A stretch of DNA of 27,444 bases from a virus. Location of the stretch: positions 1-27,444 of IMG/VR virus record IMGVR_UViG_3300028558_000086; one strand, 5' to 3'. Under the pieces are notes generated by a model, which saw only the letters and a program-made list of their open reading frames with translations, was not told where the DNA came from and searched no databases. Each line of letters starts with the position of its first letter. Within the stretch, counting starts at the first letter, position 1. Position numbers and translations under genes: made by a program. Below, piece after piece: positions 3,327 to 27,444 of this stretch.

Positions 3327-6300
3327 ATGGCTACCGCACCACAGATCTTGCTCCGGGATGGTTCTGGTTACACTACGAACCTTGTTTTCACGACTAATCA
3401 AGAATCCATTGTGATTCAGGGTAAGGTCGATAGCTCGACCTCTGACATCCAAGTATCTATCAATGGTGCTGCCTTCGTCTCGGACTCGACTCTCGTTGAC
3501 TTCAACCTCCCAAGTTTCACCATTCCTAACCTGAACAGTTACCCTGATGGTCTAGCTCTTAGTCCCGGGATCAATACTATTCAGGTCCGTACTATTGACA
3601 TTGTTGGAGGGGTGAGCGTCCCTTCTACAGTCCAGGCGACCCTCATTAGCCAATCTGACGTACTCCAAGTGGAGACTCCTTCCGGTATCCGCATGCGAAG
3701 GCTAAGGGGTTCAGTTCGGGTTCTATCAGCTCTCCCAGTCCAGCGCTTCAGTACTGCAGGAATACCGCTTCCGACCAACTTTGTTGGTTACAACTTCTAC
3801 GCCTCAACCTCAGCTGGTGGTACCACTGGGTACTATAAGATTAATGCAACTACGGTCTCCGCGAAGTCCACGATCTTTGAGGAGAATGCCAATCAGTTTG
3901 CCTCCGATCAGACAATATTCGATGCGGGGGATCAGTTCCTAGCAGTCAGTGTGGTTAGTAAGGATGAGTTCGGAAACACTATTGCTACTAAGTTGGATCG
4001 GACGTATGACACGTCGGTCTATAGCAACAAGATTCGATTCACCTCAACCTTTGAAGACTACTCGCTAACTGAGTTCATTGGATTTGAGCACGTTCGTTCT
4101 GGGACACCGGATAGCATCAATGACGACCAGTGGTCTGGGGTAGCTGATACCGATCCTCTCTACTATGTCGTGACTGGAGTGTACTTTGATCCACTGACTA
4201 GTTCAGAGGTAGAGAGCGCTTTCTCTCAAGAGGTGCTCGGGAGTCCACTGATCATTGACACCTCGGTACGATCATTACCTGGTCGCACTCAGTTTCAGGT
4301 GGTTACTGACTATGTAACTGCCGTCCAAAGGGTGAATGCTGAAATTGGACTTATTCCAGGGTCAACCACGAGAGATGTCTCAATCGACCCTTTCAGTTCA
4401 GAAGCTGAAAGGCTCTACTTCCTCATAGACTTCGTCAATCGTACTCAGAGCTTCCTGACTCTTCTCCAGATTGATGATGCCAATGGTGATGGGGTTTCGG
4501 ATCCGGTAGATGGTAGCGCCTACAAGACTGCCCTCAAAGCGGCTCTCGGATACTCAACAAACGATGCTGTTCAAAGCCTAATTGATTCAGCTTTCGACAA
4601 GCTCGCAGGGAACATCAACAAGTCTCGGTTGCCAGGGCGTCCAGCCTTTGGTCAAGAGGTTTTCTACACTCCGACCCGCCCCTCGTTCGACCTGCCTATC
4701 CCAACAGGTACGATTGTAACGACAAATGCTGACTCGTCTCTCGGTATCCCTTCAGTGAGGTTCCGAGTTGGTGGGTCATACCTAATGTCTGCAGCTATCG
4801 CAGACACCTACTACAACTTCGACACTAAACAGTACGAGATTACCGTAGACATCATCGCTGAGACAGTGGGGTCTGATGGGAATAGACCTGCTGGGCAGAT
4901 CACAAGTGTTCAGGGTGTCTCAGGTTTTCAGGTTGTTAACAACGACGCTACTGTCTTTGGGTCAGACCGAGAGAGCAATTCAGACCTAGCAACTCGATGT
5001 ATGCTAGGTTACTCAGTAGATACTGGTACCGCCGGAGGGTATGCCTCAACTTCAGCTGAGCAGGTAGGTATCGTTAAGTCCAAGATCGTCAAGAGCGGCG
5101 ACGAGCTGATGATGCGCGATTACGATGAGGTTAGGCACAAGCACATCGGTGGCAAGGTTGATATTTGGATTCAGGGTACTCAGGAGCGTCAGGTATCCGA
5201 GAGGTTTGCATTTACCTACGATATCGCGAGGGATATCACCTGCATTGTATTGGACGCCACCAACCTCATCTTCCGAGTCCAAGATAGTCGGGTAACCTCG
5301 ACAACCCCTATCACAGAGATTCTTGACAACCTCACTCTTGGGTTCGGAGTTCGTAACGTCACTCAGGGTCTCAATTATTTGCTCACAGGAGTTATCATCA
5401 TTGACTACCAGACCTTCCAGGTAGATGCGAGCATCCCTGGTCAAGTAGTCACCAACTTCGATGATGTTGTAACAGCTGACTATCGTTTCCGAAGTGTCAA
5501 CCAATTCACCTTCACCTTTCAGCCTGTGCGTCGAGTAGTGTCCGTAGTTGGAGAGGTGTCCGGTGCTTTGAACAGCACCTTAGGCTACAATCTCTATAAG
5601 ACTGCTGATCCTCTGTTGGAGGGTGAGAGCACGATTTCCACCGACTACCTGTCAATCAACCAGGTAGGTGGTATCCCCTCGGGCGCTAGCATCCAAGTCA
5701 ACAATGAGAATCACGTATTGGTTGGTGCTCAACCAATACCCCTCGGAAGTATTGGCATTAATACCAAGAGTATTCGTGTATTCAGTGCAGATCGGTCTAT
5801 CGAGTATGACGGCCCTGATGCTACGATTCCGGATTATGAGGTACTCGAAGGCGGAGCAACCACTCCTGCCAAGATCCTGAGGACCGCTACTTCAGACATT
5901 GTCAACGGGGCTACAGTCTCGGTGGATTACTCACACGACGAGAACTTCACAGTCAATTATGTGATTAATGACTTGCTGCAACAGCTTCAGCGGACGGTGA
6001 ATAGCAAGCGGCACACGACGGCGGATGTGATCATCAAGCAGGCTATCGAGAACTCAATCACCCTTGAGACCACGGTCCAGTTGCTTGTAGGGGCCACGAA
6101 GGATAAGGCTGATCCTGACATTCGTACCAATACCAGTTTGGAGACGGATCAGAGGCTCATTGGACGTGGCTTGGCTCAGGGTGATGTCATTCATGCGATT
6201 GACGAGTCCCAGGGTGTTGACTTCCCAGTGGTACCCTTGGCTCGCATGGCCTACGCAGATGGGTCTAGGAAGCTTCGTGAGTCTCTTACGTCGGCCTATC

Positions 6301-6773
6301 TGCACCTCAGCTCATTGGACCATGGGAGCAACGTTGCCTATCTCTTGACCAATCCACTTGCTTTCCCAACGACGGATGGTGGTGGCCTTGTTACTGAGCA
6401 CAAGGGAGTTTTCCAAGATGACGAGGCTATGCTACTGGTGGGTGCTCTTGCTCAGGTAGCTCTCGCCCCTCAGCAAGCATTCATCATTGGAGCGGGAGGG
6501 GCCGTTATCAACGGGTACACTGATACGGCTACCTTGGTAGCCGCGGGCTTCACCACCTCGAGCACGCAACAAGCGGAGCTCCTAAGAAGGACTGCAAATC
6601 ACATAGTCTTTTCATTGGCCGGCTTTGGGGTTATTCCTGACCTACCAACTGATCACTTCTACACGGTTTCCTACGTCATTCGTGGGGACTCCGGGTCGCA
6701 TGATATCCCAGCCACCAGTGTTGAGTTCATCACCTTGGGCAACTTCACAATCACCTATGCACAGGCTATGTAA
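3327..6773 (+). CDS. Baseplate J-like protein, enlarged, with Ig-like domain and EF-hand-type loop
   Basis: The product has 1148 residues, much longer than P2 J or Mu gp47 (about 300-360). Residues 1-105 look like an Ig-like beta domain; 105-330 are further beta-rich modules. The baseplate-J core begins near residue 460: GSDGNRPAGQIT, then NNDATVFGSDRESNSDLATR, then GTAGGYASTSAEQVGIVKSKIV at about 510-590, matching the family's 'GN..AG.I', 'GG.D.ES..ELR.R' and 'Gt..gY...a...GV..v' blocks. Residues 900-1000 (INDLLQQLQRTVNSKRHTTA, then a GDVIHAIDESQGVDF block) resemble the C-terminal half of J. Residues 384-395 (DANGDGVSDPVD) fit a calcium EF-hand loop. It is followed by a tail-I-like gene, the normal order. 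It should form part of the baseplate wedge. Confidence 0.88.
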   Translation: MATAPQILLRDGSGYTTNLVFTTNQESIVIQGKVDSSTSDIQVSINGAAFVSDSTLVDFNLPSFTIPNLNSYPDGLALSPGINTIQVRTIDIVGGVSVPSTVQATLISQSDVLQVETPSGIRMRRLRGSVRVLSALPVQRFSTAGIPLPTNFVGYNFYASTSAGGTTGYYKINATTVSAKSTIFEENANQFASDQTIFDAGDQFLAVSVVSKDEFGNTIATKLDRTYDTSVYSNKIRFTSTFEDYSLTEFIGFEHVRSGTPDSINDDQWSGVADTDPLYYVVTGVYFDPLTSSEVESAFSQEVLGSPLIIDTSVRSLPGRTQFQVVTDYVTAVQRVNAEIGLIPGSTTRDVSIDPFSSEAERLYFLIDFVNRTQSFLTLLQIDDANGDGVSDPVDGSAYKTALKAALGYSTNDAVQSLIDSAFDKLAGNINKSRLPGRPAFGQEVFYTPTRPSFDLPIPTGTIVTTNADSSLGIPSVRFRVGGSYLMSAAIADTYYNFDTKQYEITVDIIAETVGSDGNRPAGQITSVQGVSGFQVVNNDATVFGSDRESNSDLATRCMLGYSVDTGTAGGYASTSAEQVGIVKSKIVKSGDELMMRDYDEVRHKHIGGKVDIWIQGTQERQVSERFAFTYDIARDITCIVLDATNLIFRVQDSRVTSTTPITEILDNLTLGFGVRNVTQGLNYLLTGVIIIDYQTFQVDASIPGQVVTNFDDVVTADYRFRSVNQFTFTFQPVRRVVSVVGEVSGALNSTLGYNLYKTADPLLEGESTISTDYLSINQVGGIPSGASIQVNNENHVLVGAQPIPLGSIGINTKSIRVFSADRSIEYDGPDATIPDYEVLEGGATTPAKILRTATSDIVNGATVSVDYSHDENFTVNYVINDLLQQLQRTVNSKRHTTADVIIKQAIENSITLETTVQLLVGATKDKADPDIRTNTSLETDQRLIGRGLAQGDVIHAIDESQGVDFPVVPLARMAYADGSRKLRESLTSAYLHLSSLDHGSNVAYLLTNPLAFPTTDGGGLVTEHKGVFQDDEAMLLVGALAQVALAPQQAFIIGAGGAVINGYTDTATLVAAGFTTSSTQQAELLRRTANHIVFSLAGFGVIPDLPTDHFYTVSYVIRGDSGSHDIPATSVEFITLGNFTITYAQAM

Positions 6774-12273: not shown

Positions 12274-15200
12274 ATGTCGAATAATTACGGTGAGGGCGTC
12301 TCCAGAGTTCTTGACCCAGCTACTACTCAATTCCTGAGTGTTCTGTGGCAAGAGGGTCTACCGCCACTCGACTCCGAATGGAACCTCGTAGGTGATTTGG
12401 CTGCTGGCTGGGACCGTCAGAAGGTCTTGCTGGGGACCCCCTCAGGTTGGTTCGGAAACGACATCAACCCTTCAAAGGACTATCAGACTGATCCAACTTG
12501 GTCCAACTGGTTCAAGTTTGGCCGACAGCGTGTTGGCGACAAGCAGTCCATCATGTGGGCGGCCGTCAATGGTTGGTTGGTTCCTGTCACCGGTACTCAG
12601 ACTGGGGACCCTCCAGGGAGTCCGGATGATGTGGACACCTGGAACAAGATTCTCCTTGACCCACCTCCGGGGTTGACTGGCGATGCTCGGCCTGACTTTG
12701 TGTTCCTTGAGGTCTGGAAAGCTCGGGTTGGACCCTACCCGTCGACTCTCAACAAGCCGAATGGGTCCGCCATCTACAAGTACGGCAACATCGAAGGAGG
12801 CTTCAGCTACCTTGCTGATGACCTACTTGATCCGGCGATTGGTGAGGAGACAACCGAACGCATTCAGCTGCAGTATCGGATTCGAGTCGTCAAGGGTCTC
12901 ATTAACCTCGGAACCAACCCTGACGGTTTTGATCCAACAGTGGTCAAAGCCCAAGGAGCTCAAGCTACGCCACCCTCTGTGGGTGGCTACACCTTCACGA
13001 ATATGCGTGAGGAGTTGGGTGATCCAGGTCTTTGGAGAGCTGGCGATGGTACTGCGAATGTTCTAGGTACCGTGGACGGCTATGTCTACGCAATCCCTAT
13101 TTGCATCGTTTTCCGACGCAATTCCATCTCGTGGACAGGTGAGCCTTCTCAGAACCTCAACGGTGGTTTCAACCGTAATCCTACCGCCGTTGATCGTACT
13201 GGTACTCTAACATTCTCGACAGTACCTACTCTTGCTTCTGACCTAAGTGCATCCTCCTCTCCTGCAATTCTGGTTTCAGCTTCAAGTATCCCGCTTCCAT
13301 TAGCTCCAAGTTCTCCTGTAACGATCAGGATTGACGAGGAACTAATCACCTATTCTGGTATCTCTAGTACCAATATCACCATAACGGGTCGTGGGGCGAA
13401 TGGAACTGCACCGGCAGTTCACAAGGCTGGTGCGACCATTACGGTGGTATCGACTCGTCCTGACGGGCTATACTCGGATCAGGTTACAGGAACCGACATT
13501 CACGACTTGAGGCACGCAGTTAACCCCGCTGGGTTCAACTACGACAACATGCTCAAGTCGAACCTGGATAAGTTGCTACGAGGGCAACTACGGGCAAACT
13601 GGAAGAGGACAGGTACCGACCCGCGCGGTATCTACCTCCTCTATGAAGATAAGATCAGCTTAACCCCTCCAATCAGTCTGGGTATTACTGGACTTGATGG
13701 CCCTGATCTTATTCGAATGATCTTCTCAGATGCTGCTGTTCAGCAGCCAGTCGAGGTGATCTGCAAGCCAGCTACTTGGAGTTCAACTCCAAGCTTCCCT
13801 CTGGATGGCACCCAGATTTGGGGTCTACAGATTACATCTAGCATTTCATTTCAGGGTTCAACTGGCGTTTGGAGTATTGGTGACCGGATCAGTATTCCAG
13901 TAGCCCAGTTCAAGACTGGGGTGTCAGTTCCGGATGCTGACCAGATCAGATTCCTCAACGACCAGCCTGCAGCGGGAACCGGTACTTCCTCTGGAACACT
14001 GCAGTTCATCGATGCCTCTGGTGATTACGTAACCAATGGGGTCGAAGTTGGGGATACGCTAGTCATCTTTGCAGGCGCGGCAGCTGGGTCTTATACGATC
14101 ACCCAGGTAACGACTACTGTCCTTACCGTAACCGCAACCATTCCGGCAGCGGTCCTGTCGACCTACGTCATTCGAAAAGGTGTGGGTGCACTTCAGATTC
14201 GTGTCGAGGGACAGGCAACCCCACTAGCACAACACAACTTCACTGTTACTCCGCCTAATCCAGGTCCGACAGACGATCTGGTGATCACTATCAACTCGGG
14301 GAATGCTTTCCCGACTAGCGGTACTGCAAACCTCTATATCACAACGCACATTCAGTATGGTGGTGGTAGGGGCTTATCCAGGCGCCCGGATTCAATTCAC
14401 AGCGTCACTTTGTTGAATCCAAACTCTCAGCTACTCCACCAGGCAGAGTACTCTCAAACAGGTACTTTCTCACTTCGAACAGCTTGGGCTCCACTTTGGA
14501 GCAAGTTTAGAGGGGACACCTATAAGAGCCTTCTACCAGTAACAGCTGAAGCTTATGCGGATCTTGGGTCAAAGACAGTAGTCATCTCTCCGTTCCAAGC
14601 GATTCAGTTCCCAATCCCTACCCCGATTACCGGTAGCATAATGCATGTTCTTGACGGGCATAACCCTGACCCGTTGAGTCTTTTTGACCACTCCCAGTAT
14701 GTCATTCTTCCTCGACACTTGGTTCCTGGGTGGGGTGCAGTAGAAGTACCCATCATCCCGGTCACAGGAGGTGGCAACTTCCATCGAGGCATCAACTTCA
14801 TGCTGATGTCCCAAGAAGGCAGTACTCCTACTGGGACATCCTTTAACAACAACTACATCAATTACACAATTGGTGGTACAGCCGCTGTATTCTCTACCCT
14901 GAATCTGTCAACCTCGTTGCCCGCAGATTACAACGGGTTGCTGCACTACGGGAGTTTTGCATATACCTCTAATTATGCGGGTATTCGTACCTTCAATGAT
15001 GACCCGACGGTAGTCGGAGCGCTTTCAACTGCACGAGGGTTGGGACGTCATGGCCTAGAACTTCCTCCTTACTACGGTATCGCAAGGTTGTTCGCTGTCT
15101 ATGAGGCTCAAGACTACAAGACCCACGGATCGTCTTTCACTATGAGTGGGGGTCGTACCTTTACTGGTACAGGAGCTACCAACCTACTGCGCGGTGACTT

Positions 15201-18200
15201 CAACGGGCCGACATTCTGGATTGAAAAAGATGTCAATGGGGACAGTACCTTCATCCTAAATGCCGATACTATCGACATAACAAAGTCCCCCAATCTGATC
15301 CCCACCTTCGACTCTGGGAACTATGTCATCGAAGCTTGTGTGTTCGGCTTTGATCGTAATTCATTCGATCTAACTCAGCCATTCAAGCTTGCTCTGAGCA
15401 CAGCCCCGGGGAGTCTGATAGCTCCCTATGCAATCTTGCCAGGACCTATCTCTGGGTCTGATACGGCACTCATCAACTACAGTAGGACTCCGTACCAAGG
15501 GGATGCATGGGGAACCGCCACTTCGTTCTCAGACAAGGGGTTCACTCCAGGTCCATTGACGAGTGCAAACGCTTTCCAGCTGGCTTCGACCTCGCTCATT
15601 CCCAACATGCTCACTCGTCCAAACCAGAAGCCAGTAGAGGTCCTAGCTTCAATTGGTTTCGTGACCACGTTGGGTACCGGTCGTCTCTCTGGTGACTTCT
15701 CGGTAGCGAATGCTTACGACATTCGAAACGTAGGGTACGAAGATCCAACTGACCCAAGCGCACCTTATCCGCCTCTTGGGCCATCTAACCCAAGACCTCT
15801 CGTCAAGTCTGGAGCGCTTGGGAGCCTCGCCAACTACGGGGATCTAGAAGCCAACCCAGAGTACCTAGGGTGCACTGAACGGCTCCCCTTGGGCGCGCTA
15901 TACCGCGACAAAGACTTTCATGGGTCCAGGTTCTCGGATGAGTTGTCCTCACCCTTTGTCTACATGGATACAGCTGGCGTAGGCTCGGGGGTCGCGGGTC
16001 TCGCTCGCACCTTAGAGTTAGATCAGACAGAGGTTTTGGCGATGCCGGCTTCTGTATCCGCGGGCGTGCCTGGTGACGTCCTGGTGATGGTTGACGGAGA
16101 GTCCTCCGATTACACTCAGTTGCTTAACTACAGGACCAATCGAGGTGGCTCAGCTTTCGTTGGTTCTGGGGATCGACCTGGCGGTGAGATCTTTGCCACT
16201 TACTCCAGGCTCTTGGGTTCTGGTAAGGGTACTCGAGTCCTTGTCGGTCGTGCGTTCCTTGTTAGGAATGCTCCTACCTCCGTTGGGTCAACTGAGGTCT
16301 CCGGCGGTGACGAGCTGATGATGACCATCGCTACCCAGGTCATGGAGCTTGGGACGACCCCAATCGAAGCCATGATCCTATTGGGGACGAATGGGTCAAG
16401 TGAAGGGTATGCAGCGGCTGACACCTACCGTATCGAAGGCCACCCCCTTCTAAGCAATCACACATTCTACGATGTTGACCCAAGTGTGATCCAACTCCCT
16501 CTTGGGAAGACTATCGCTCAGATCACGGCTCCTTCTCCGACACCAGCTATTCCGATTGGCGCGAATGATACTGTCTACGCCAGTGATGGGGTCCGCAACT
16601 TCTGGACAAACATCCCTACCCTCACAGCACTGGTTTTGATTGACAATCTATTAGTTGCTGGAAACGTAGTAGTCTCGTCCAATGCAATCACATTCACTAA
16701 TGCCTCACGCATTAGTACTTCTAATCTATCCTCTGGTACCACCAGTTCGCTAATTGTTAGTACTGGAGACGGTACGGGGACTGCTGGCACAGGCAACCTC
16801 ATACTTACTCCTGGAACCTCAAGCGGTTCTGGATCCGCTGGTGGGCTCGTTCTAACGGGTGGAGCCTGCACGGGTTCTTCAGGTAATGGTGGTGGAGTTA
16901 CTCTAGCAGGCGGCACCACCTTCAACGGGAATGGTGGGAGTGTTGCTATCCGAGGTGGGACTGCGGGTGTCTCTGGTAATGGTGGAAATGTCACCATATC
17001 AGCGGGGCTTGGTACTATCACTAATGGTTCAGTATCCGTTAGGATAGGACCTCTTGTTACAGTAGTTAGCTTCACCAATACGGATCTCATTCTTGGTCCA
17101 GATAGTGCTGGGGACTATGGAATACACTTCACTGCTGAGACTACCAACACCACAATAGATCAAGCTGATGCTGTATCAGGTAATGGATCCACACTCACCA
17201 TTAAGTCCCAGACTGCAGCCCCTGGGAATAACGATGGTGGTATTATTCATATCGTAGCAGGGCATGGCACCGGATCAGGTCGAACTGGAACTGTTCAAAT
17301 ATCTAATGGATTACGCACTAATGTACTGATCAGTGCTACCGACATTGAGAGTACATTTTTTGACCACAATATCACCGAGTTGGGTGATCCGAACGCTATT
17401 GACGTCTATAGTCTGACTTTTAGTTCAAGAGTTCTAGCCCCTAAGATAGGGCAGAAACCCGTTAATGGTGATGGTGAAACCCTCACCATTAAGTCTGCTG
17501 ATGTAGCAGCAGCTTTCTTCGGCAAGGGTGGTGACCTGGGTATCTTTGCTGGTAACGCCACGGGTGATGTCTCTCATCAGCATCAGGGTGGTGACATTTA
17601 CCTGAAGGCTGGTAAGGGTTCTTTTGCTCGCTCGGGTCAGGTGTTCTTACAGGTTGAGACTGGTACAACCATGTCTCCCTCACCAGTGACAGTGGCCACT
17701 ATCAATCAGGCAGCGGTTACTGTTGATGTTAGCGCTCTTAACTTTGATCCAACAGTATTTCACCCTGTTATCTCTCAGCAGGATGCAGTTGCAGGTCAAG
17801 ATGGTACTGTACTCAAGGTACAAGCCCAAAAAGGTGATCAAGCTGGTGGTTCATCCCATAACGGTGGGGACCTCGTTCTAGTCTCAGGTGCTCATGGTCC
17901 CAGTGGAGGTAATGCTGGAGCCATCAACTTGTTCCTAGGTTCTGAGGCTTACCCGACACTAGGAGCAGATAGAACTGGTTTGGCCTTCCGAGGGTCTAGC
18001 AGTGGTAATAATGGCATAGGGATTGTTGATTCTACTACAGATCCACCGACTATGCCGCTCAACTGCACTAGTGCTATTTACGCAGTTGGCAGCCCGATAT
18101 CCTCTAGTACACAACTCAAGTATTCAGATGGTAGCTCTGTTACTCGATACCTTGAGGGTGTTTCAGAGAGGGTTGTTGTTAACAGTGCTAGTATCGTTAA

Positions 18201-18597
18201 CCCAATAACTTCGGCTAACCCTGTCACTTCATCCTCTCCAGTCCTGCTTAGTGCGTTCGCGCAGTCGTTCGCTGTAGAGGGGGGTGACATTCTAGAGGGT
18301 TCAGTCATTGTCCACTTGGTAGCAGCGGCATCTGCTGGTAACGCAGCTAGCTTCCACTTGATAATAGTTGATGGAGTTACTCCATTGGACATCACCTCGT
18401 ATCAATTCCCTATGGACAATGGTGTTGATGTGTACCTAACGGTACCCTTCTCCTTCACTATTCCGAATGTTAGCTCTGGAACTGTCGAGATTAAACCAGA
18501 GGCTTCGGTTAGTGGTGGATCTCTAGACGTGACTACCCCGCATACTGGTGGCAAGTGGTTGTTTGCCAAGCATGTCGTAGGTGCAGCAGGTACTTGA
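12274..18597 (+). CDS. Giant tail fibre/tip protein with glycine-rich beta-repeats
   Basis: The product has 2107 residues. The N-terminus has VLWQEGLPPLDSEWNLVGDL, the 'QG..LD.EWN...D' pattern that opens many phage fibre proteins, and DFVFLEVWKARVG near 145. Residues about 390-700 are beta-rich modules. Near 1505-1590 is a glycine-rich run with 'GNGG.V.I.GG' units (GNGGGVTLAGG, GNGGSVAIRGG, GNGGNVTISAG), suggesting a narrow beta-helix or polyglycine-II-like fold. Three imperfect repeats of about 100 residues follow (starting near nt 17161, 17452 and 17776), each with 'G.G.TL.IK....GG.I.I..G'. The last 140 residues look like a separate jelly-roll tip (AFAQSFAVEGGDILEGSVIV to the end). It is probably the host-contacting fibre. 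It ends just before a strong terminator. Confidence 0.75.
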   Translation: MSNNYGEGVSRVLDPATTQFLSVLWQEGLPPLDSEWNLVGDLAAGWDRQKVLLGTPSGWFGNDINPSKDYQTDPTWSNWFKFGRQRVGDKQSIMWAAVNGWLVPVTGTQTGDPPGSPDDVDTWNKILLDPPPGLTGDARPDFVFLEVWKARVGPYPSTLNKPNGSAIYKYGNIEGGFSYLADDLLDPAIGEETTERIQLQYRIRVVKGLINLGTNPDGFDPTVVKAQGAQATPPSVGGYTFTNMREELGDPGLWRAGDGTANVLGTVDGYVYAIPICIVFRRNSISWTGEPSQNLNGGFNRNPTAVDRTGTLTFSTVPTLASDLSASSSPAILVSASSIPLPLAPSSPVTIRIDEELITYSGISSTNITITGRGANGTAPAVHKAGATITVVSTRPDGLYSDQVTGTDIHDLRHAVNPAGFNYDNMLKSNLDKLLRGQLRANWKRTGTDPRGIYLLYEDKISLTPPISLGITGLDGPDLIRMIFSDAAVQQPVEVICKPATWSSTPSFPLDGTQIWGLQITSSISFQGSTGVWSIGDRISIPVAQFKTGVSVPDADQIRFLNDQPAAGTGTSSGTLQFIDASGDYVTNGVEVGDTLVIFAGAAAGSYTITQVTTTVLTVTATIPAAVLSTYVIRKGVGALQIRVEGQATPLAQHNFTVTPPNPGPTDDLVITINSGNAFPTSGTANLYITTHIQYGGGRGLSRRPDSIHSVTLLNPNSQLLHQAEYSQTGTFSLRTAWAPLWSKFRGDTYKSLLPVTAEAYADLGSKTVVISPFQAIQFPIPTPITGSIMHVLDGHNPDPLSLFDHSQYVILPRHLVPGWGAVEVPIIPVTGGGNFHRGINFMLMSQEGSTPTGTSFNNNYINYTIGGTAAVFSTLNLSTSLPADYNGLLHYGSFAYTSNYAGIRTFNDDPTVVGALSTARGLGRHGLELPPYYGIARLFAVYEAQDYKTHGSSFTMSGGRTFTGTGATNLLRGDFNGPTFWIEKDVNGDSTFILNADTIDITKSPNLIPTFDSGNYVIEACVFGFDRNSFDLTQPFKLALSTAPGSLIAPYAILPGPISGSDTALINYSRTPYQGDAWGTATSFSDKGFTPGPLTSANAFQLASTSLIPNMLTRPNQKPVEVLASIGFVTTLGTGRLSGDFSVANAYDIRNVGYEDPTDPSAPYPPLGPSNPRPLVKSGALGSLANYGDLEANPEYLGCTERLPLGALYRDKDFHGSRFSDELSSPFVYMDTAGVGSGVAGLARTLELDQTEVLAMPASVSAGVPGDVLVMVDGESSDYTQLLNYRTNRGGSAFVGSGDRPGGEIFATYSRLLGSGKGTRVLVGRAFLVRNAPTSVGSTEVSGGDELMMTIATQVMELGTTPIEAMILLGTNGSSEGYAAADTYRIEGHPLLSNHTFYDVDPSVIQLPLGKTIAQITAPSPTPAIPIGANDTVYASDGVRNFWTNIPTLTALVLIDNLLVAGNVVVSSNAITFTNASRISTSNLSSGTTSSLIVSTGDGTGTAGTGNLILTPGTSSGSGSAGGLVLTGGACTGSSGNGGGVTLAGGTTFNGNGGSVAIRGGTAGVSGNGGNVTISAGLGTITNGSVSVRIGPLVTVVSFTNTDLILGPDSAGDYGIHFTAETTNTTIDQADAVSGNGSTLTIKSQTAAPGNNDGGIIHIVAGHGTGSGRTGTVQISNGLRTNVLISATDIESTFFDHNITELGDPNAIDVYSLTFSSRVLAPKIGQKPVNGDGETLTIKSADVAAAFFGKGGDLGIFAGNATGDVSHQHQGGDIYLKAGKGSFARSGQVFLQVETGTTMSPSPVTVATINQAAVTVDVSALNFDPTVFHPVISQQDAVAGQDGTVLKVQAQKGDQAGGSSHNGGDLVLVSGAHGPSGGNAGAINLFLGSEAYPTLGADRTGLAFRGSSSGNNGIGIVDSTTDPPTMPLNCTSAIYAVGSPISSSTQLKYSDGSSVTRYLEGVSERVVVNSASIVNPITSANPVTSSSPVLLSAFAQSFAVEGGDILEGSVIVHLVAAASAGNAASFHLIIVDGVTPLDITSYQFPMDNGVDVYLTVPFSFTIPNVSSGTVEIKPEASVSGGSLDVTTPHTGGKWLFAKHVVGAAGT

Positions 18598-18607
18598 TAA
18601 ACCAAGA

Positions 18608-18639
18608 GGGCTCACCGGCTGTGCGCCAGTGAGCCCTTT
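18608..18639 (+). terminator. Rho-independent terminator after the fibre block
   Basis: GGGCTCAC pairs perfectly with GTGAGCCC. An inner GGC/GCC pair closes a TGTGC loop (with one C/A mismatch), and the hairpin is followed by TTTAT on the plus strand. It sits 10 bases after the fibre stop and between convergent genes. The minus-strand copy is followed by a less T-rich sequence, so it may end the reverse lipoprotein transcript less efficiently. Confidence 0.85.
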
Positions 18640-18656: not shown

Positions 18657-20396
18657 TCAGAATCCGTCGGGAGTTACTGGAGATGAACTCACAGGTAAGG
18701 ACAAGTTGCCAGTCAGCTTGCCCCAGCACTTTATAGTTCCACTCTTGAGAACTGCGCAGGTCGATTCATTAGCCCCGACTGCCACGCTTGTGGCGTCTAG
18801 GATCCCAGGTACAACTACGCCGATATTGTTGGTCTTCGTTGTTCCATCACCTAACTCACCACTCTCGTTAAAACCCCAGCATTCAACTTCTGAGGTTGTA
18901 GTGAGTGAGGGGCGGCTGTAAACTCCACAGGCATGGGATGAGCCTGCTGCTATCCCAGAGTTCTGTAAGCTAATCGTCTGATAGGTTATTGTGGAGGGGG
19001 CTAGGGTTGGTACTGTGCTATTGTATTGTGACCCCCAGCAAAAAGATTGGTTGGCATCAGATATGTAGCAGATATTGCTGGACCCAACAGAGAACTGAAT
19101 AGCATTCGAGATGCTCTGAATTGCTATTGGGGTTGATGTTGACTTGGTGGTAGTAGTTGTTGCAAACTCTCCGTTGAGACTTTGCCCCCAGCACTTGATG
19201 GTCTTGTCACTCAGCAAGGCGCAAGCGAAGCTTGCGTTTGCCGCTATCCCTATCGCGTTGGTGATCCCGACCACCTGAGTTAGGGTTGCAGAGTAGTAGT
19301 AGTCGCTCGAAGTGCCATCAATGCCGTTACCAAGGGTCCCATACTTGTTGTACCCTACACACCATACGGTATGGTCAGCAAGAAGGACACAGGTGTAGAA
19401 GTTCCCAACAACGACATCAATCGCATTTGACACCCCGAGGAACTGAACTGGGTTTGGGTTGGGGGTGTAAGGGTCAGCATCATTGGGCAAAGAGCGTCCA
19501 TCTCCAAGCTCACCGTCAGCATCGGAGCCCCAGCATTTGACAGTACCATCATTCAAGAGAGCGCAAGTATGGCTCGTGTATGTCGATACTTTGACAGCAT
19601 TCGAGATTCCAGTAACTTGGACAGGGGTCGCATTGTTGTTAGTTGTTCCGTTCCCAAGTTGACCAGACTTGTTTAACCCCCAACACTTGATGTTGCCGTT
19701 GCTCAATACTGTGCAGGTTTGGCTTGAACCAACTGATACCTGAGTGGGGACTGGAGGAGCTACTGCAGAGCTTCCACCCGTCGAAGGGCTTCCACCGGTG
19801 CCTGGAGTTGAGCCACCGGTGCCTGGAGTTGAGCCACCGGTGCCTGGAGTTGAGCCACCGGTGCCTGGAGTTGAACCTCCGGTGCCTGGAGCTGAACCTC
19901 CCGTGGCTTGGCTTCCACCGGTGCCTGGAGCTGAACCGCCGGTACCCTTGGTTGAACTTCCGCCGGTTGCCTTTGATCCTCCGGTACCCTGAGTAGAACT
20001 TCCGCCGGTTGCCTTTGATCCTCCAGTTGCCTTTGATCCTCCAGTTGCCTTTGATCCTCCGGTACCTTGTGGGCTCCCGCCGGTACCCTTTGGAGTCGTG
20101 GTGCCTATCGAGCTGAACCCGCCCGTAGAGGTTGTACTCTGGGGGGAGCTTCCGCCGGTGGCTTGTCCTTGGTCCCCGCCCGTCTCGCCAACTACCGCTG
20201 AGGTCCCCGCTACATTAGCCGAGGAGCCACCCGTAGACTCGGAAGAGGAGCCACCCGTAGACCCAGTCTCTGTATTCAGGGTCGCTGATCCACCAGTACT
20301 CTCTACCGTGCTCACGGAAACTGGGGTTCCATCAGAATTACTTCCGCAAGCGGTGAGTACGAGAACTAGTGCGATTATGGTCTGGAACTTGGACAT
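18657..20396 (-). CDS. Surface lipoprotein: TGGS-repeat linker plus seven-bladed RCC1 propeller
   Basis: I start at the second ATG (20396): GAGG lies seven bases before it, and the likely promoter would start RNA downstream of the first ATG at 20408. That gives 579 residues. The signal peptide MSKFQTIIALVLVLTAC ends in an LTAC lipobox, so the protein is lipidated at Cys17. Residues about 25-225 are Ser/Thr/Gly linker with about 20 TGGS motifs. The rest is seven RCC1-type repeats of about 45-60 residues with the signature 'C.LL..G..KCWG.N..G.LG.GT', enough for a closed propeller. Nearly every blade has two Cys, suggesting disulfides and an exported location. Such lipoproteins are common in Myxococcota genomes. 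Here it is the only reverse gene in a phage block, hence a likely cargo gene. Its binding partner is unknown. Confidence 0.9.
   Translation of the reverse strand: MSKFQTIIALVLVLTACGSNSDGTPVSVSTVESTGGSATLNTETGSTGGSSSESTGGSSANVAGTSAVVGETGGDQGQATGGSSPQSTTSTGGFSSIGTTTPKGTGGSPQGTGGSKATGGSKATGGSKATGGSSTQGTGGSKATGGSSTKGTGGSAPGTGGSQATGGSAPGTGGSTPGTGGSTPGTGGSTPGTGGSTPGTGGSPSTGGSSAVAPPVPTQVSVGSSQTCTVLSNGNIKCWGLNKSGQLGNGTTNNNATPVQVTGISNAVKVSTYTSHTCALLNDGTVKCWGSDADGELGDGRSLPNDADPYTPNPNPVQFLGVSNAIDVVVGNFYTCVLLADHTVWCVGYNKYGTLGNGIDGTSSDYYYSATLTQVVGITNAIGIAANASFACALLSDKTIKCWGQSLNGEFATTTTTKSTSTPIAIQSISNAIQFSVGSSNICYISDANQSFCWGSQYNSTVPTLAPSTITYQTISLQNSGIAAGSSHACGVYSRPSLTTTSEVECWGFNESGELGDGTTKTNNIGVVVPGILDATSVAVGANESTCAVLKSGTIKCWGKLTGNLSLPVSSSPVTPDGF
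19790..20100 (-). repeat. Tandem coding repeats (21-bp and 18-bp units) encoding TGGSTPG / TGGSKA
   Basis: Reading the plus strand, the 21-base unit CCTGGAGTTGAGCCACCGGTG occurs three times exactly at 19801-19863 and continues as near copies to about 19944. From about 19960 to 20065 an 18-base unit built around CCGGTTGCCTTTGATCCT is repeated. All units are multiples of three, so gain or loss of copies keeps the frame and only changes linker length. Confidence 0.85.
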
Positions 20397-20411
20397 TTTA
20401 TGCCTCATACA

Positions 20412-20440
20412 GTATTACGTCCGAGCAGCCTGGTTCTCAA
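20412..20440 (-). promoter_or_regulatory. Sigma70-like promoter of the RCC1 lipoprotein
   Basis: On the minus strand, TTGAGA (20440-20435; 5/6 to the -35 consensus) is separated by 17 bases from TAATAC (20417-20412; a poor 3/6 -10 match, while the overlapping AATACT is 4/6 with an 18-base spacer). Transcription would begin around 20405, just inside the first ATG, leaving GAGG and the second ATG as the translation start. The call is by eye, without scoring. Confidence 0.45.
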
Positions 20441-20553: not shown

Positions 20554-21015
20554 ATGGACATCAATAGCCTAGCCAGCAGTATTTTCAACGTCCAAACGAT
20601 CTATCTCTGTTTGGCAATCTACGTCGTAACTTACTTGATTCGTAGGGTAATCGAGGGCACTTGGAGTATCCTCATCCAGCAGGGTGAAGCCAAGAAGGTA
20701 TCCGTGTCCAGTAGAATTTGGGAGGAGGTAGTTGTACCGATACTCCCAATCATGATCGGTGGCGGATTGAGTTTTGCCGCAAAAACCTTCGTTTGGCCAG
20801 ACTTTGCGATCAAGACGAAGCTTGCTAGGTTCTTGTACGGGTGTATCTGTGGTTTGTTCTCGGCTTTCATCTACAATAGAATCCGAGGTTGGCTGAAGAG
20901 CAGATCTGACTTCTCGGTAGATGAGGCAGACGAGCCTATTGCATTGAAAGCCCCTAGGCTCGATGGTCCTATTCCCCCTGCTCCTCCAAAGTCAGAGCCC
21001 CCCAAGGCTGCCTAA
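20554..21015 (+). CDS. Small polytopic membrane protein, first gene of the envelope cassette
   Basis: The product has 153 residues. There are three likely membrane segments: about 16-33 (IYLCLAIYVVTYLI), 58-76 (VVVPILPIMIGGGLSFAA) and 92-109 (FLYGCICGLFSAFIYN). The C-terminal 40 residues are acidic, then Pro-rich (GPIPPAPPKSEPP), and probably cytoplasmic. Size and topology would allow a holin-type role, but there is no adjacent endolysin and I see no family motif, so I leave it as a membrane protein. It is the first gene after the divergent control region, 12 bases before the next membrane-anchored gene. Confidence 0.7.
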   Translation: MDINSLASSIFNVQTIYLCLAIYVVTYLIRRVIEGTWSILIQQGEAKKVSVSSRIWEEVVVPILPIMIGGGLSFAAKTFVWPDFAIKTKLARFLYGCICGLFSAFIYNRIRGWLKSRSDFSVDEADEPIALKAPRLDGPIPPAPPKSEPPKAA

Positions 21016-21027
21016 GGTTAACCATAA

Positions 21028-21597
21028 ATGACTGAATCAAGCACAGAGTCCTTCGGAACTAGGTTCTGGAAGGCGTTTGTAGGTTTCTTTTTCGGGATTT
21101 GGGCCTTCATAAAGAAGCTCAGCCCCAAAGTTTTGGGCCCGCTCGCGGCCCTTGTCATAATAGTAATTGCTGTCGTTCTAGTCTCCATGGGGTTCAAGGA
21201 ACTCCAGATTGGTGGCATCCTAGGGAAGCTGCTCGGGAAGAAGGGTGGGACTAATCCAGGTGGGCCAACAGTAGAGACAGCCAACACCATCGACCCCAAG
21301 CGTGTTGGCCCTGATGGCAAACTCATCCCCCAGGGAGATCCAGATCCGAAGGGTGATACTCAGGCGGTAGTCGTACCGATCCAGACCCCTGGGATATTCT
21401 CAGACCCAAGTACAGTTACTTATGTGGCTCCGGGTGACACCCAGCCGACAGTGATCCCCCTACCTACAGGTGTAACCAGCAAGCAAGTAGATCAGGTTAT
21501 CATAGTTCAGCCGAACGTGGTAGCTGTCACAGTTAAAGACACCTCAGGAGTATCTGCGCAGACAGTTGAGGATCTTCTTAACAAATATCGTAAGTGA
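21028..21597 (+). CDS. Membrane-anchored protein with Pro/Gly-rich periplasmic-type tail
   Basis: The product has 189 residues. Residues 14-30 are an aromatic amphipathic stretch (AFVGFFFGIWAFIKKL), followed by one strong membrane segment at about 36-56 (LGPLAALVIIVIAVVLVSMG). After it come a Gly/Lys-rich hinge, a Pro/Asp-rich linker and a small beta-like domain (about 115-189) ending in a short helix (TVEDLLNKYRK). One membrane anchor plus an extended tail would be compatible with an inner-membrane spanin or an envelope-bridging protein, but neither a second spanin subunit nor a family match is visible. The stop overlaps the next start (TGATG), so the two are probably co-translated. Confidence 0.7.
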   Translation: MTESSTESFGTRFWKAFVGFFFGIWAFIKKLSPKVLGPLAALVIIVIAVVLVSMGFKELQIGGILGKLLGKKGGTNPGGPTVETANTIDPKRVGPDGKLIPQGDPDPKGDTQAVVVPIQTPGIFSDPSTVTYVAPGDTQPTVIPLPTGVTSKQVDQVIIVQPNVVAVTVKDTSGVSAQTVEDLLNKYRK

Positions 21598-22493
21598 TGG
21601 ACCCCAAGCTCAACCCCCTTGACCAACTCATCGCAGCTCGTGTAAAGTTTCGTTTCGCCTCTATTAGGAACGCAAACCCGATAGATACTAACGACTACCA
21701 ACGGGCTATCCGATCATTGAAGGAAGCGGACTCCATCCTCGCTGAGGTAAAGACGTCCACCTCTAGGCATGAGTCAGCAGCAAAAAGTGCATTGAATGCA
21801 TTTTCTACTGCTGTTGACGAGATTCCTGGTAAATTGGAGAAGCTTGGGATCAACATCAAGGGGATTCAGAGGTTTCAGACTCAGCTCGTGAACCTAGTCA
21901 AGGTTGCAAAGAAGGGCTCCCCCCTACGAGCGTACAGTACATTCTCTAGTGATAGGCCTCTCAATAAGGTCGAGAGCGTCATAAACAGTCTGGGTAAGGC
22001 TGCCCTGAAGTCCGCCGGAGTTGGGACTAAGATACTGAAGCCAGCTCTAGTTGCTCATACTTTGCAAGATGTAGTGAGTGTCTTCAGTGATGTTATCTAT
22101 GCTTGCGATGAGTGGTATGCTTTTGCAGGTTCTAGTGCCAGCAGTATCGACCAACTTGTCATGGATGCTTGGTGGATTCAGGAAGAGCCCTTCTCTAGCG
22201 GATTCACACTAACCAGGGAGTACGAGGAGTACGTCAAAGCTCAGCGAGTTTTCGCTAAGCAGAATAAGGACCTTCTCGATACAGTTCGGCATAACGTTAT
22301 CGGTCTTCCAATGGCTAGCACCAAGTTCGAAGATTGCGAAGACGTTAACCTCTGCATATCTACTGCAATCAAAGCCCTCGATGAGGCTTTGAAGCTTAAC
22401 TTGGACTTCGGTAAGAAGTGGGGTGACTTCAGATCCAAGAATCAGGACCAGTCAACAGGACAGAAGTCCTTATTTGCACGGGCTAGGCGGTAG
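21597..22493 (+). CDS. Hypothetical alpha-helical protein of the envelope cassette
   Basis: I choose the ATG at 21597, which overlaps the previous stop (TGATG), rather than the GTG one codon earlier; this gives 298 residues. It is mainly helical: charged helices at about 35-100 (YQRAIRSLKEADSILAEV; LEKLGINIKGIQRFQTQLV), a region rich in Ala/Ser/Val at 125-190, and a final helix pair (STAIKALDEALKLNLDFG). Three cysteines lie at scattered positions; there is no signal peptide or clear membrane segment. It is followed after two bases by the hairpin leader of the secreted protein gene. I do not recognise the family. Being in the same run as two membrane genes and one secreted gene, it may act at the envelope; that is inference only. 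Confidence 0.65.
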   Translation: MDPKLNPLDQLIAARVKFRFASIRNANPIDTNDYQRAIRSLKEADSILAEVKTSTSRHESAAKSALNAFSTAVDEIPGKLEKLGINIKGIQRFQTQLVNLVKVAKKGSPLRAYSTFSSDRPLNKVESVINSLGKAALKSAGVGTKILKPALVAHTLQDVVSVFSDVIYACDEWYAFAGSSASSIDQLVMDAWWIQEEPFSSGFTLTREYEEYVKAQRVFAKQNKDLLDTVRHNVIGLPMASTKFEDCEDVNLCISTAIKALDEALKLNLDFGKKWGDFRSKNQDQSTGQKSLFARARR

Positions 22494-22495
22494 GC

Positions 22496-22518
22496 GTCAC
22501 CTCCGGTGTAGAGGTGAC
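22496..22518 (+). promoter_or_regulatory. Hairpin that sequesters the Shine-Dalgarno of the secreted barrel-like gene
   Basis: GTCACCTC (22496-22503) is perfectly complementary to GAGGTGAC (22511-22518), with a 7-base loop CGGTGTA. The right arm contains the GAGGTG ribosome site and ends one base before the ATG at 22520. The left arm is itself a copy of the anti-Shine-Dalgarno (CACCTC). In RNA this should lower initiation unless something opens it. The loop sequence recurs before two later genes. Confidence 0.65.
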
Positions 22519-22519
22519 C

Positions 22520-23119
22520 ATGAAACGCCTCCTGACTGCCTTGACGTTGCTCCTATGGCCTGTGGCAGCACAAGCTCAAGGAGCGTGTGCCTCGGGTTCG
22601 ACTTGTGTCTCAGACGTTGATCTGAAGACTTTTATCACCTTGGCACAAGAGAAGCAGTGCCTGCAGAAGACTCAACCCACTTTTCAGTTGGATCCTATCG
22701 CTGTTATAGTGGATAAGGATGGTCGAGTTTACTACTCCGGTGATGAGCCCAAACCATACTCCTTGAAACTGACTTGGTGCACCTACGAGGTGACCACTAC
22801 GGGTAAGGTGGCCTTGGTCGTCGCCAAGAATGAGCCACCAGTATGGGGTTTCAGATTCCGTCCTAAGTTTGCAGGGAGTTACTTGTTCGTCGATGGTTTC
22901 TCCAGTACTAAGGCGGTTGATGGAGTTGACATCGGAATCTTGTGGGACTTCCTCTACTATAAGGCGGTCAACCTCAACGTTGCTACTGGGTTCAGATCCA
23001 TTGGCGCTGGTCTAGGTGTTGACTTGTTCAAGAACATGACCTTGTATGGTGGTTACGCTTTTTCATGGTGGACTCTGAAGCACAACCCTAGTATAGGTGT
23101 TGGTTTTGCGCTCTGGTGA
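22520..23119 (+). CDS. Secreted protein with outer-membrane beta-barrel-like C-terminus
   Basis: The start is the ATG at 22520 behind GAGGTG, not the in-frame GTG at 22514; 199 residues. A clear Sec signal peptide (MKRLLTALTLLLWPVAAQAQ) has an AQA cleavage site near residue 18. The mature N-terminal part has four cysteines and a helical segment (DLKTFITLAQEKQCLQK). From about 110 onward come amphipathic strands with alternating hydrophobic residues (WGFRFRPKFAGSYLFVDGF, VNLNVATGF, SIGAGLGVDLF, MTLYGGYAFSWW), and the protein ends in GVGFALW with a terminal aromatic residue, the signal typical of outer-membrane barrels. The count of strands is low for a closed barrel on its own. A surface-modification, exclusion or outer-membrane-disrupting role is possible; none is proved. 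Its stop overlaps the endonuclease gene. Confidence 0.7.
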   Translation: MKRLLTALTLLLWPVAAQAQGACASGSTCVSDVDLKTFITLAQEKQCLQKTQPTFQLDPIAVIVDKDGRVYYSGDEPKPYSLKLTWCTYEVTTTGKVALVVAKNEPPVWGFRFRPKFAGSYLFVDGFSSTKAVDGVDIGILWDFLYYKAVNLNVATGFRSIGAGLGVDLFKNMTLYGGYAFSWWTLKHNPSIGVGFALW

Positions 23120-24087
23120 TGACTACGGCCTTCGTATACTCCATTACCAACAACCTCAGTAAAAAAGTGTACATTGGTAAGACCACGAACTTGAAAAGTC
23201 GATGGAAGTATCATAGAGGCGTCAAGAAACGCGGTTGGGTATCGCTCATCAGTCGTGCGATTAGAAAGTATGGTGTTGAAAACTTCACCTTTACAGTACT
23301 AGCTTCCTACTCGAGTGAGGAGGAAGCTTACTCAGGAGAAGTTGATTGGATCTCTAGGCTTCAATCCAATGACCCTGGCAAAGGTTACAACCTTGAATCT
23401 GGCGGCATGGGAGGTAAGAGAGCTTCCGAAGAGACTCGGCTCAGACAATCATTGAAACGTAAGGGTATACCAAGACCTCCAGAGGTTATAGCTAAGTTAC
23501 ATTCCCCTGAATCTCGAAAGAAAGTAGCTGATGCTAAGCGAGGGCAACACCTACCTGAAGTCACGAGGAAAAAGATCTCGGCTGCTCATCTAGGAAAGCC
23601 TAAAAATCCAAAAGCCGTAGAGAAGTCAGCTGCTGGGCATCGAGGGAAGCCATTGTCTCAAGAGCATAGAATTAAGTTGAGTCATGCTCTAAGGGGCCGA
23701 GTCTTCTCCACCGAACATCGAGAGAAGATAGCTGAGTCAAATAGAGTCAAAGGCCTTGCTGCACGAGGTGTACCATTATCACCAGAACGTAAGGCTAAAA
23801 TAAGCTTGGCACTTAAAAGTGTAACTCATACTTGGGCAAAACCTCTAACACTAGAGCACAAAACCAAGCTTAGTTTAGCTACAAAAGGTCGTCCTCTAGC
23901 ACCTGAGCACATTGCTAAGTTGACCGAAGCAAATAGAATTAACGGTGCAAAGAGGCGTGGAGTACCTCTAACCCCAGAACGTCGAGCTAACATGAGTGCT
24001 GCTCAGAAAGGTCGCCCAAAGTCACCTGAACATATAGCAAGAGTGGTTGAGGCTAAAAGGGCTGCTCGACTTGCCCGTCAAACTTAA
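23119..24087 (+). CDS. GIY-YIG homing endonuclease with NUMOD3-like DNA-binding repeats
   Basis: The start is the ATG at 23119, in a TGATG overlap with the previous gene; 322 residues. The GIY-YIG nuclease domain covers about 1-95: VYSITN (6-11), VYIGKT (17-22), catalytic Arg28 in SRWKYH, catalytic Glu74 in GEVDWI, and YN (90-91) before an ESGG turn, as in I-TevI/Seg enzymes. The 'GIY' triplet is degenerate (FVY). The rest (about 100-322) is some 11 helical modules of 17-27 residues of the NUMOD3 type ('LSPEH..KLS.A.KGRP'), which contact DNA in such enzymes. It should cut a phage-less allele nearby and spread itself. Placement between an envelope gene and the replication genes is typical of a free-standing homing gene. 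Confidence 0.92.
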   Translation: MTTAFVYSITNNLSKKVYIGKTTNLKSRWKYHRGVKKRGWVSLISRAIRKYGVENFTFTVLASYSSEEEAYSGEVDWISRLQSNDPGKGYNLESGGMGGKRASEETRLRQSLKRKGIPRPPEVIAKLHSPESRKKVADAKRGQHLPEVTRKKISAAHLGKPKNPKAVEKSAAGHRGKPLSQEHRIKLSHALRGRVFSTEHREKIAESNRVKGLAARGVPLSPERKAKISLALKSVTHTWAKPLTLEHKTKLSLATKGRPLAPEHIAKLTEANRINGAKRRGVPLTPERRANMSAAQKGRPKSPEHIARVVEAKRAARLARQT

Positions 24088-26748: not shown

Positions 26749-27444
26749 TGAAGGGATTACTTCGGTCAGTCATTGACTATGGTGGTATTACTCAGGAGAA
26801 TCTGAAGGCTAACTTTCAGAGGCTCACTCAGTCCAAGCTTGAATGGCCACATCCTGCGGACAAGCGCATCTATGACTTCCTCAGGAAGTACTTTCATCAG
26901 CGCCTTGAGATGCCTTCGAAGCAGACGATCATCGATCACTTCGAAATCAAGAAGGACCAAGAGGCTATTGAGCGGGTTGGGGACCATGAGGTAGCCCCTC
27001 CCTATAGTCGTACTAACTTCACCCATTTACTACATGAGACTCTTGAAGAGCAGAATAAGATTCGGGCTATCACGATTCTGAAAGAGGCCCAGGAGATCAT
27101 CACCAAAGGACTCATCGTTGAAGAAGAGACCAAGCGTGGTCTTCGAGACGGGGTGATGCACTTCGCGCGCAACACTCATCGCCTGTTGGTCTACGAACAC
27201 AACTCCAGGATTGATGGTAACATCAGGGACGACGGACAGGAAGTCTGGGATGAGTACCTAGATGCCAAGGCCAACAAGGGCAACGTCTGGGGGATGTTCT
27301 GTGGCATCAACGGAATCGACTCGTTCGTCAAGGGAATCAAGAAAGGTGAGATGTGGGTTCATGCTGCTTTCGTAGGTGAACTCAAGACAACCTTCGCCTT
27401 GAACTGGTGCTACAACCTTATCACTCGATACAAGAAGAGTGCTA
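26748..27444 (+). CDS. DnaB-like replicative helicase, 5' part
   Basis: The gene starts at the ATG overlapping the previous stop (TGATG) and runs off the right edge; 232 codons are visible. The first 150 residues are helical (YDFLRKYFHQRLEMPSKQTI; HETLEEQNKIRAITILKEA), where DnaB has its N-terminal and linker domains, though I see no clear DnaB N-domain signature. From about 185 the RecA-like core begins: GINGIDSFVKGIKKGEMWVH, then AAFVGELKTTFALNW. This corresponds to the DnaB block 'G....D....G...GEL...AA.PG.GKT.FALN', but with GELKT where GxGKT is normal. It probably unwinds DNA at the phage fork. The missing 3' part should hold Walker B and the arginine finger. Confidence 0.75.
   Translation, partial: MKGLLRSVIDYGGITQENLKANFQRLTQSKLEWPHPADKRIYDFLRKYFHQRLEMPSKQTIIDHFEIKKDQEAIERVGDHEVAPPYSRTNFTHLLHETLEEQNKIRAITILKEAQEIITKGLIVEEETKRGLRDGVMHFARNTHRLLVYEHNSRIDGNIRDDGQEVWDEYLDAKANKGNVWGMFCGINGIDSFVKGIKKGEMWVHAAFVGELKTTFALNWCYNLITRYKKSA

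Follow-up and report, generated by a model that had tools for sequence, protein, structure and literature searches.

Analysis of the window, a complete IMG/VR record of 27,444 bases without end repeats, indicated that the RCC1 lipoprotein gene at positions 18657 to 20396 (minus strand) is real and intact, and that it belongs to an antisense lipoprotein slot that recurs beside a phage tail gene and is not a lone insertion. The motif in front of the gene suggests that it is wired to the non-structural, probably early, promoter class of the phage. The recurring slot and the phage-wide promoter class are additions to the original prediction, which had described a phage-borne RCC1 lipoprotein lying alone inside a tail/lysis-type region. 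The phage setting agrees with the Baseplate J-like protein encoded at 3327 to 6773 (plus strand) and with the tail-like genes of the window, and the surface role that had been proposed, including superinfection exclusion, is judged plausible.

The anatomy of the gene is close to certain. The deduced protein has 579 amino acids, or 583 if the alternative in-frame ATG at 20408 is used. Its N-terminus, MSKFQTIIALVLVLTAC, shows a positive n-region, a hydrophobic core and a lipobox cysteine; this call was made by inspection rather than with a dedicated predictor. The putative signal peptide with the lipobox LTAC, ending at Cys17, occupies 20346 to 20396 (minus strand) and is kept in the related contigs L004 and L060; the protein is taken to be exported and lipid-anchored, and the residue at position +2 is glycine rather than aspartate. 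It is followed by a low-complexity stalk of about 200 residues of TGGS-like and TGG units, read directly from the translation (residues 18 to 215; 19752 to 20345, minus strand) and predicted to be disordered, and by an RCC1 propeller (residues 216 to 579; 18660 to 19751, minus strand). Pfam searches identified RCC1_2 in six stretches (E 3e-34) and RCC1 (E 3e-21), and the RCC1 repeat families PF00415/PF13540 scored above the curated cut-offs (116.2 bits against 22 and 76.2 against 21.7). By our own count the propeller holds seven CxnCWG/CVG repeats with 14 cysteines forming seven pairs. All 14 cysteines are common to the window protein and its L004 homologue; in an alignment of 16 sequences 12 of the 14 were invariant and the remaining two nearly so, and cysteine pairing is therefore regarded as a general trait of exported RCC1 repeats. 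An AlphaFold2 model built from the 16 aligned sequences placed a confidently modelled 27-stranded propeller, starting at residue 217, after a disordered linker, and the top PDB matches of the model were the seven-bladed RCC1-type folds UVR8, HERC2 and RCC1, with TM-scores to the target of up to 0.83. The complete seven-bladed propeller with paired cysteines and the TGGS linker foreseen from the nucleotide sequence were thus recovered by repeat counting and by structure prediction.

A search for the same insertion in related phage genomes revealed two further copies. The 183.5-kb viral contig L004 (also G001) encodes a full-length homologue, placed and oriented as in the window and 54% identical to the window protein by tblastn and 65% by MAFFT, which sits between the same tail gene (74% identical) and the same downstream genes, including a SNF2-type helicase that is 87% identical. 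The third copy, a TGGS-RCC1 lipoprotein of 562 amino acids, was found on the 512.6-kb contig G023 (IMGVR_UViG_3300028654_000001) on the upstream side of the tail gene. The gene is hence antisense to and beside the same tail gene in all three phages, but on differing sides, and its leader and promoter are kept. Differences between the window and L004 propellers were distributed 85/91/172 over the three codon positions, a bias to the third position. The relatives keep the gene intact, so the pseudogenisation or loss of conservation that had been named as grounds for doubt did not occur. An assembly join at 18.6 or 20.4 kb had been named likewise; identical junctions and gene order on the independent contig L004 make a chimera very unlikely. 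A further contig, L014, is identical to the window over 4349 bases (100%) and ends at window position 20410, 14 bases from the open reading frame; no other near-identical contig extends to this side, and the near-identical population was sampled once across the gene. L014 derives from another metagenome record and its base 1 falls exactly at the lipoprotein promoter, a coincidence perhaps caused by the TGGS repeats or by strain variation. Exact-pattern scans of viral contigs for variant alleles found none in the scanned set, which may omit records close to the window.

The neighbour of the lipoprotein gene encodes a tail protein of 2107 amino acids, probably a fibre (12274 to 18597, plus strand), which gave a weak PHROG tail match, follows the Baseplate J-like gene and would be the receptor-binding protein. 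It is 74% identical in L004, as noted, and 64% identical in L060, the third RCC1 phage. To survey the surroundings of this gene, relatives were gathered via neighbouring genes without the lipoprotein as a query, giving 50 contigs, mostly of jumbo phages; 7 kb on either side of the tail gene was extracted from 48 further contigs, and lipoproteins were called by a simple lipobox rule. An antisense lipoprotein gene was detected within 1.3 kb of the tail gene in 12 of the 50 contigs; a thirteenth antisense lipoprotein, in G012, was the only one that did not adjoin the tail gene. The slot lies downstream of the tail gene in the window, L004, G009, G037 and G059 and upstream in G003, G023, G026, G033, G040, G041 and G050. 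By the same rule no lipoprotein was detected beside the tail gene in the other 38 relatives. The position of the gene in a tail region was confirmed, its description as solitary was not. The many long antisense open reading frames of GC-rich relatives were judged spurious.

The heads of the 12 slot lipoproteins were RCC1 in three, other propeller-like in eight and Lcl_C-like in one. The G009 lipoprotein combines a TGGS-type stalk with a different propeller-like head, while G033, G040 and G041 share related cysteine-rich stalks with DUF5050-like heads (the Pfam match of G033 being over the cut-off and that of G040 just under it). The Lcl_C match of the G026 head was under the Pfam cut-off, the G003 head gave a weak match to the Lactonase propeller, and the remaining heads were termed propeller-like from their repeats, without Pfam support. 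On a tree of the tail protein N-terminus the lipoprotein state changes at least seven times and its presence is patchy, while the RCC1 trio (window, L004 and G023) forms a single clade. The C-terminal 700 or so amino acids of the tail protein (16501 to 18594, plus strand) were detected only in phages with an RCC1 lipoprotein (3 of 3 against 0 of 47); because the trio forms one clade, this association may represent one event and not three. In G037 (L192, about 4694 to 5264), an open reading frame adjoining the 845-aa lipoprotein begins by repeating the C-terminal sequence of that protein, VVTPQTLYRAPVT, which may be left over from head exchange or from a duplication.

The original prediction gave the gene its own promoter and a shared terminator, and evidence was obtained for both. 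The sequence TTGAGA-N14-ACGTAATA (20413 to 20440, minus strand) stands directly before the lipoprotein start in the window, L004 and G023, despite the location of the gene on different sides of the tail gene. When G023 was scanned with the pattern TTGAGAN7CCCTCANACGTAATA, allowing up to three mismatches, 25 sites were found against none in the reversed sequence used as a control. Nearly all of these sites have the start codon of a small open reading frame within about 20 nt, and they mostly precede small non-structural reading frames. Their density reached 9, 9 and 4 sites per 20 kb in mixed-strand regions of small reading frames, against 0 to 1 in the baseplate/tail, portal and terminase regions, where large reading frames lie nearly all on one strand; the sole site in the tail region of G023 is that of the lipoprotein itself. 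From the type and location of the genes that carry the motif, we infer that the lipoprotein would be made early. A matrix trained on 31 non-lipoprotein sites, with 215 genes as background, gave the upstream regions of the lipoprotein genes of the window, L004, G023, G033, G037 and G041 higher scores than any of the background genes (Mann-Whitney p 7e-6; 4e-4 after removal of the three RCC1 phages), and the last three of these six are non-RCC1 lipoproteins. Five lipoproteins had no convincing motif by matrix scoring. A generic sigma-70 scan alone was uninformative (1 site against 1.5 expected), and the idea of a random cargo gene with its own sigma-70 promoter was replaced by that of the regulon motif. 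The convergent lipoprotein and tail genes share a bidirectional terminator hairpin at 18607 to 18637 (both strands; z -3.9 and -4.4), and equivalent, differing hairpins occur at the same junction in L004 and in one more distant relative.

The 28-bp consensus of the G023 sites is KTGAGAN7CCCTCANACGTARTA (for example L255, L259, L270 and L274-L289), and start codons often lie 5 to 6 nt past it, which suggests leaderless or very-short-leader mRNAs for many small genes. The phage group, which has no isolate among the annotated phages searched, gains a specific promoter consensus. Queried with the baseplate protein, that collection gave matches in two phages only, an uncultured one of 485 kb and Tunturiibacter phage Tunturi_5, and no close isolate was found.

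The arrangement resembles that of known exclusion lipoproteins. Phage T5 encodes Llp from an early lipoprotein gene adjoining pb5/oad and blocks FhuA with it, Llp of BF23 blocks BtuB and is unrelated in sequence to that of T5, and Rtp45 blocks LptD (PMC9586334, PMC4728585, PMC12685063); related coliphages hold exclusion factors beside a J-like tail protein (PMC11990801). A phage lipoprotein gene beside a receptor-binding or tail-tip gene is common to T5 Llp, BF23 Llp, Cor of T1-like phages, Rtp45 and the window, and besides the RCC1 trio nine further phages have a lipoprotein gene beside this tail gene. Related phages of the Llp type use unrelated proteins for the same blocking role, and blocker and receptor-binding gene are treated as a module; the slot lipoproteins may behave likewise. 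Early expression is known for T5 Llp and would hold by inference for the window lipoprotein. The latter, with about 560 residues when mature, a long stalk and a propeller head, differs from the small lipoproteins of the Llp, Cor and Rtp45 type (Rtp45 is of about 6 kDa); Llp and Rtp45 act on the periplasmic side, whereas the window protein is presumed to be displayed on the surface, and the slot genes, unlike those of the Llp type, are antisense to the tail gene and lie on either side of it. Since the protein has 579 amino acids and all its recognisable sequence is RCC1, neither small size nor sequence relation to Llp or Cor was found and it is not filed as a member of that type.

Other RCC1 proteins share parts of this architecture. 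Bacterial RCC1 lipoproteins from an Archangium MAG (L044) and from Polyangiaceae (L230-L252) likewise have a lipobox, a glycine-rich or acidic stalk and six to seven CxnCWG repeats; the window copy differs in lying on a phage, beside a tail gene and behind a phage-wide promoter, and its propeller is only about 30 to 40% identical. RCC1-type repeats are also present in the RCC1/BNR proteins of the cyanophages S-SRM01 and BUCT-ZZ01, with 26 to 30% identity over the propeller only (57 to 59% of the query). Eukaryotic RCC1, UVR8 and HERC propellers have the same seven-bladed fold, but the window protein is predicted to lie outside the cytoplasm, rich in disulfides and held by a lipid anchor. Weak matches were obtained to PHROG families named regulator of chromosome condensation, and this chromatin/Ran label has no functional meaning here.

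The relation to bacterial proteins extends to the origin of the slot lipoproteins. The L044 gene, with lipobox, glycine-rich GTGGS stalk and RCC1 repeats, lies on a bacterial chromosome, and the G003 phage lipoprotein (DSG stalk, cysteine motif and propeller) is 36% identical to Polyangiaceae proteins over most of its length. This lipoprotein matched 6 of 41 Polyangiaceae genomes and none in the one control family searched. On the propeller tree the window and L004 copies group together (100/100) and the L060 copy is unresolved; the tree resolves no nearest bacterial relative for the window propeller either. The host is probably Myxococcota-like, for which the Polyangiaceae matches are only suggestive. 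A seven-repeat RCC1 lipoprotein with an acidic DA-rich stalk is encoded far from the tail gene in G032, at about 221.3 to 222.7 kb (L220, 7335 to 8747), and it groups with Myxococcota propellers (96/79).

We tentatively favour early surface conversion or superinfection exclusion, with a logic like that of T5 Llp and a protein of a different family, and rate its chance as a little below even. The lipoprotein would probably be made early from the non-structural-class promoter, separately from the opposing late tail operon, exported and lipidated at Cys17, and the glycine at +2 would probably direct it to the outer membrane. The TGGS stalk may hold the disulfide-rich propeller away from the anchor, and the propeller would most likely bind and mask, or jam, whatever structure the tail fibre of the same phage recognises, so that infected cells and debris would stop adsorbing progeny or competing phages. 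This scheme is in keeping with the lipid anchor, the extended stalk, a head suited to binding, a promoter that is probably early, the tail-fibre neighbour and frequent replacement; the confinement of the tail C-terminal region to the RCC1 phages also speaks in its favour. Refilling of the slot with differing stalked lipoproteins would be expected if the blocker must follow a changing receptor. Against the scheme stand the far smaller size of the known exclusion lipoproteins, the 38 relatives in which no slot lipoprotein was detected and the five lipoproteins with no convincing motif. A tight receptor match is argued against chiefly by the RCC1 trio, in which the head does not track the tail tip: the tail ends of the window and G023 are 71 to 78% identical, yet their heads only 32%, while those of the window and L004 are 49% identical, yet their heads 63%, and no covariation of head and tip was found in the trio. 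The tail C-terminus (16501 to 18594) itself is mosaic, since it is more similar to G023 than is the N-terminus (57%), while towards L004 the order is reversed (N-terminus 84%, last part 49%).

Among the other readings, a surface reprogramming distinct from exclusion, in which a mimic of host adhesion or recognition proteins alters contact, aggregation, kin recognition or predation and improves phage spread, is unlikely, but less so than the rest. Myxococcota-type bacteria are social and predatory, and the phage lipoproteins copy their architectures (Archangium L044; Polyangiaceae, 36%); such bacteria are, however, only a probable host, and such reprogramming alone leaves the repeated placement beside the tail-fibre gene unexplained. 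That placement equally escapes a scavenger, decoy or inhibitor binding an enzyme or a diffusible ligand in the surroundings and protecting the infected cell, which we consider improbable even though propellers, those of RCC1 type included, are binding platforms of general use, as in the secreted RCC1-type propeller BLIP-II that binds beta-lactamase, and the slot heads are diverse. A gene located between tail and holin-like genes might encode a virion or lysis factor, one that anchors or assists the tail fibre or acts together with the lysis cassette next to it; its opposite strand, its lipoprotein signal peptide, its non-structural promoter class, the relatives that mostly do without it and its retention in L004, where the lysis-side genes are replaced, leave this role little probability. 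Equally small is the chance of neutral cargo (a moron) acquired from hosts and retained with no particular function: presence is patchy on the tail tree and the sequences are host-like, but the reading frame is conserved with third-position-biased change and 14 conserved cysteines, the promoter is shared with the phage and the placement is repeated and non-random.

Early surface conversion, if extended to the whole group, would describe a jumbo phage family whose exchangeable antisense slot holds host-like (Myxococcota-like), stalked and mostly propeller-bearing lipoproteins, expressed from an early promoter and recoating the cell outside the membrane, as a surface counterpart of the periplasmic Llp type whose head changes with the receptor; this wider picture is possible and is proposed with more reserve. 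Should it hold, the lytic conversion that coliphages achieve with small exclusion lipoproteins would reach giant phages in a large, modular and stalked form that borrows host surface architectures. An antisense lipoprotein beside a tail gene with a non-structural-class promoter would then be a genomic rule for finding receptor-blocking proteins, and such blockers in uncultured giant phages would lead to the targets of their tail fibres.

The original prediction had also joined the lipoprotein in one system with the divergent envelope/lysis-like cassette at 20554 to 23119 (plus strand), which comprises a holin-like gene, two unknown genes and an outer-membrane barrel-like gene. This link was abandoned and the cassette is judged to be outside the system. 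L004 keeps the lipoprotein while detectable homologues of the genes at 20554, 21028 and 22514 are absent nearby, and cassette genes are present in many relatives without any lipoprotein. The genes at 21028 and 22514 co-occur modestly with lipoproteins (Fisher p 0.04 and 0.02), values that are uncorrected for kinship and reflect detectable homology. An 86-aa antisense open reading frame at 26766 to 27026 (minus strand) is 50% conserved in L004, where it overlaps a longer gene on the opposite strand, and is probably a shadow reading frame. Between the outer-membrane-like gene and the helicase, a free-standing GIY-YIG/NUMOD3 homing endonuclease is encoded at 23116 to 24087; it is absent from L004, and in L064 and L074 homologues occupy different positions within the same cassette.
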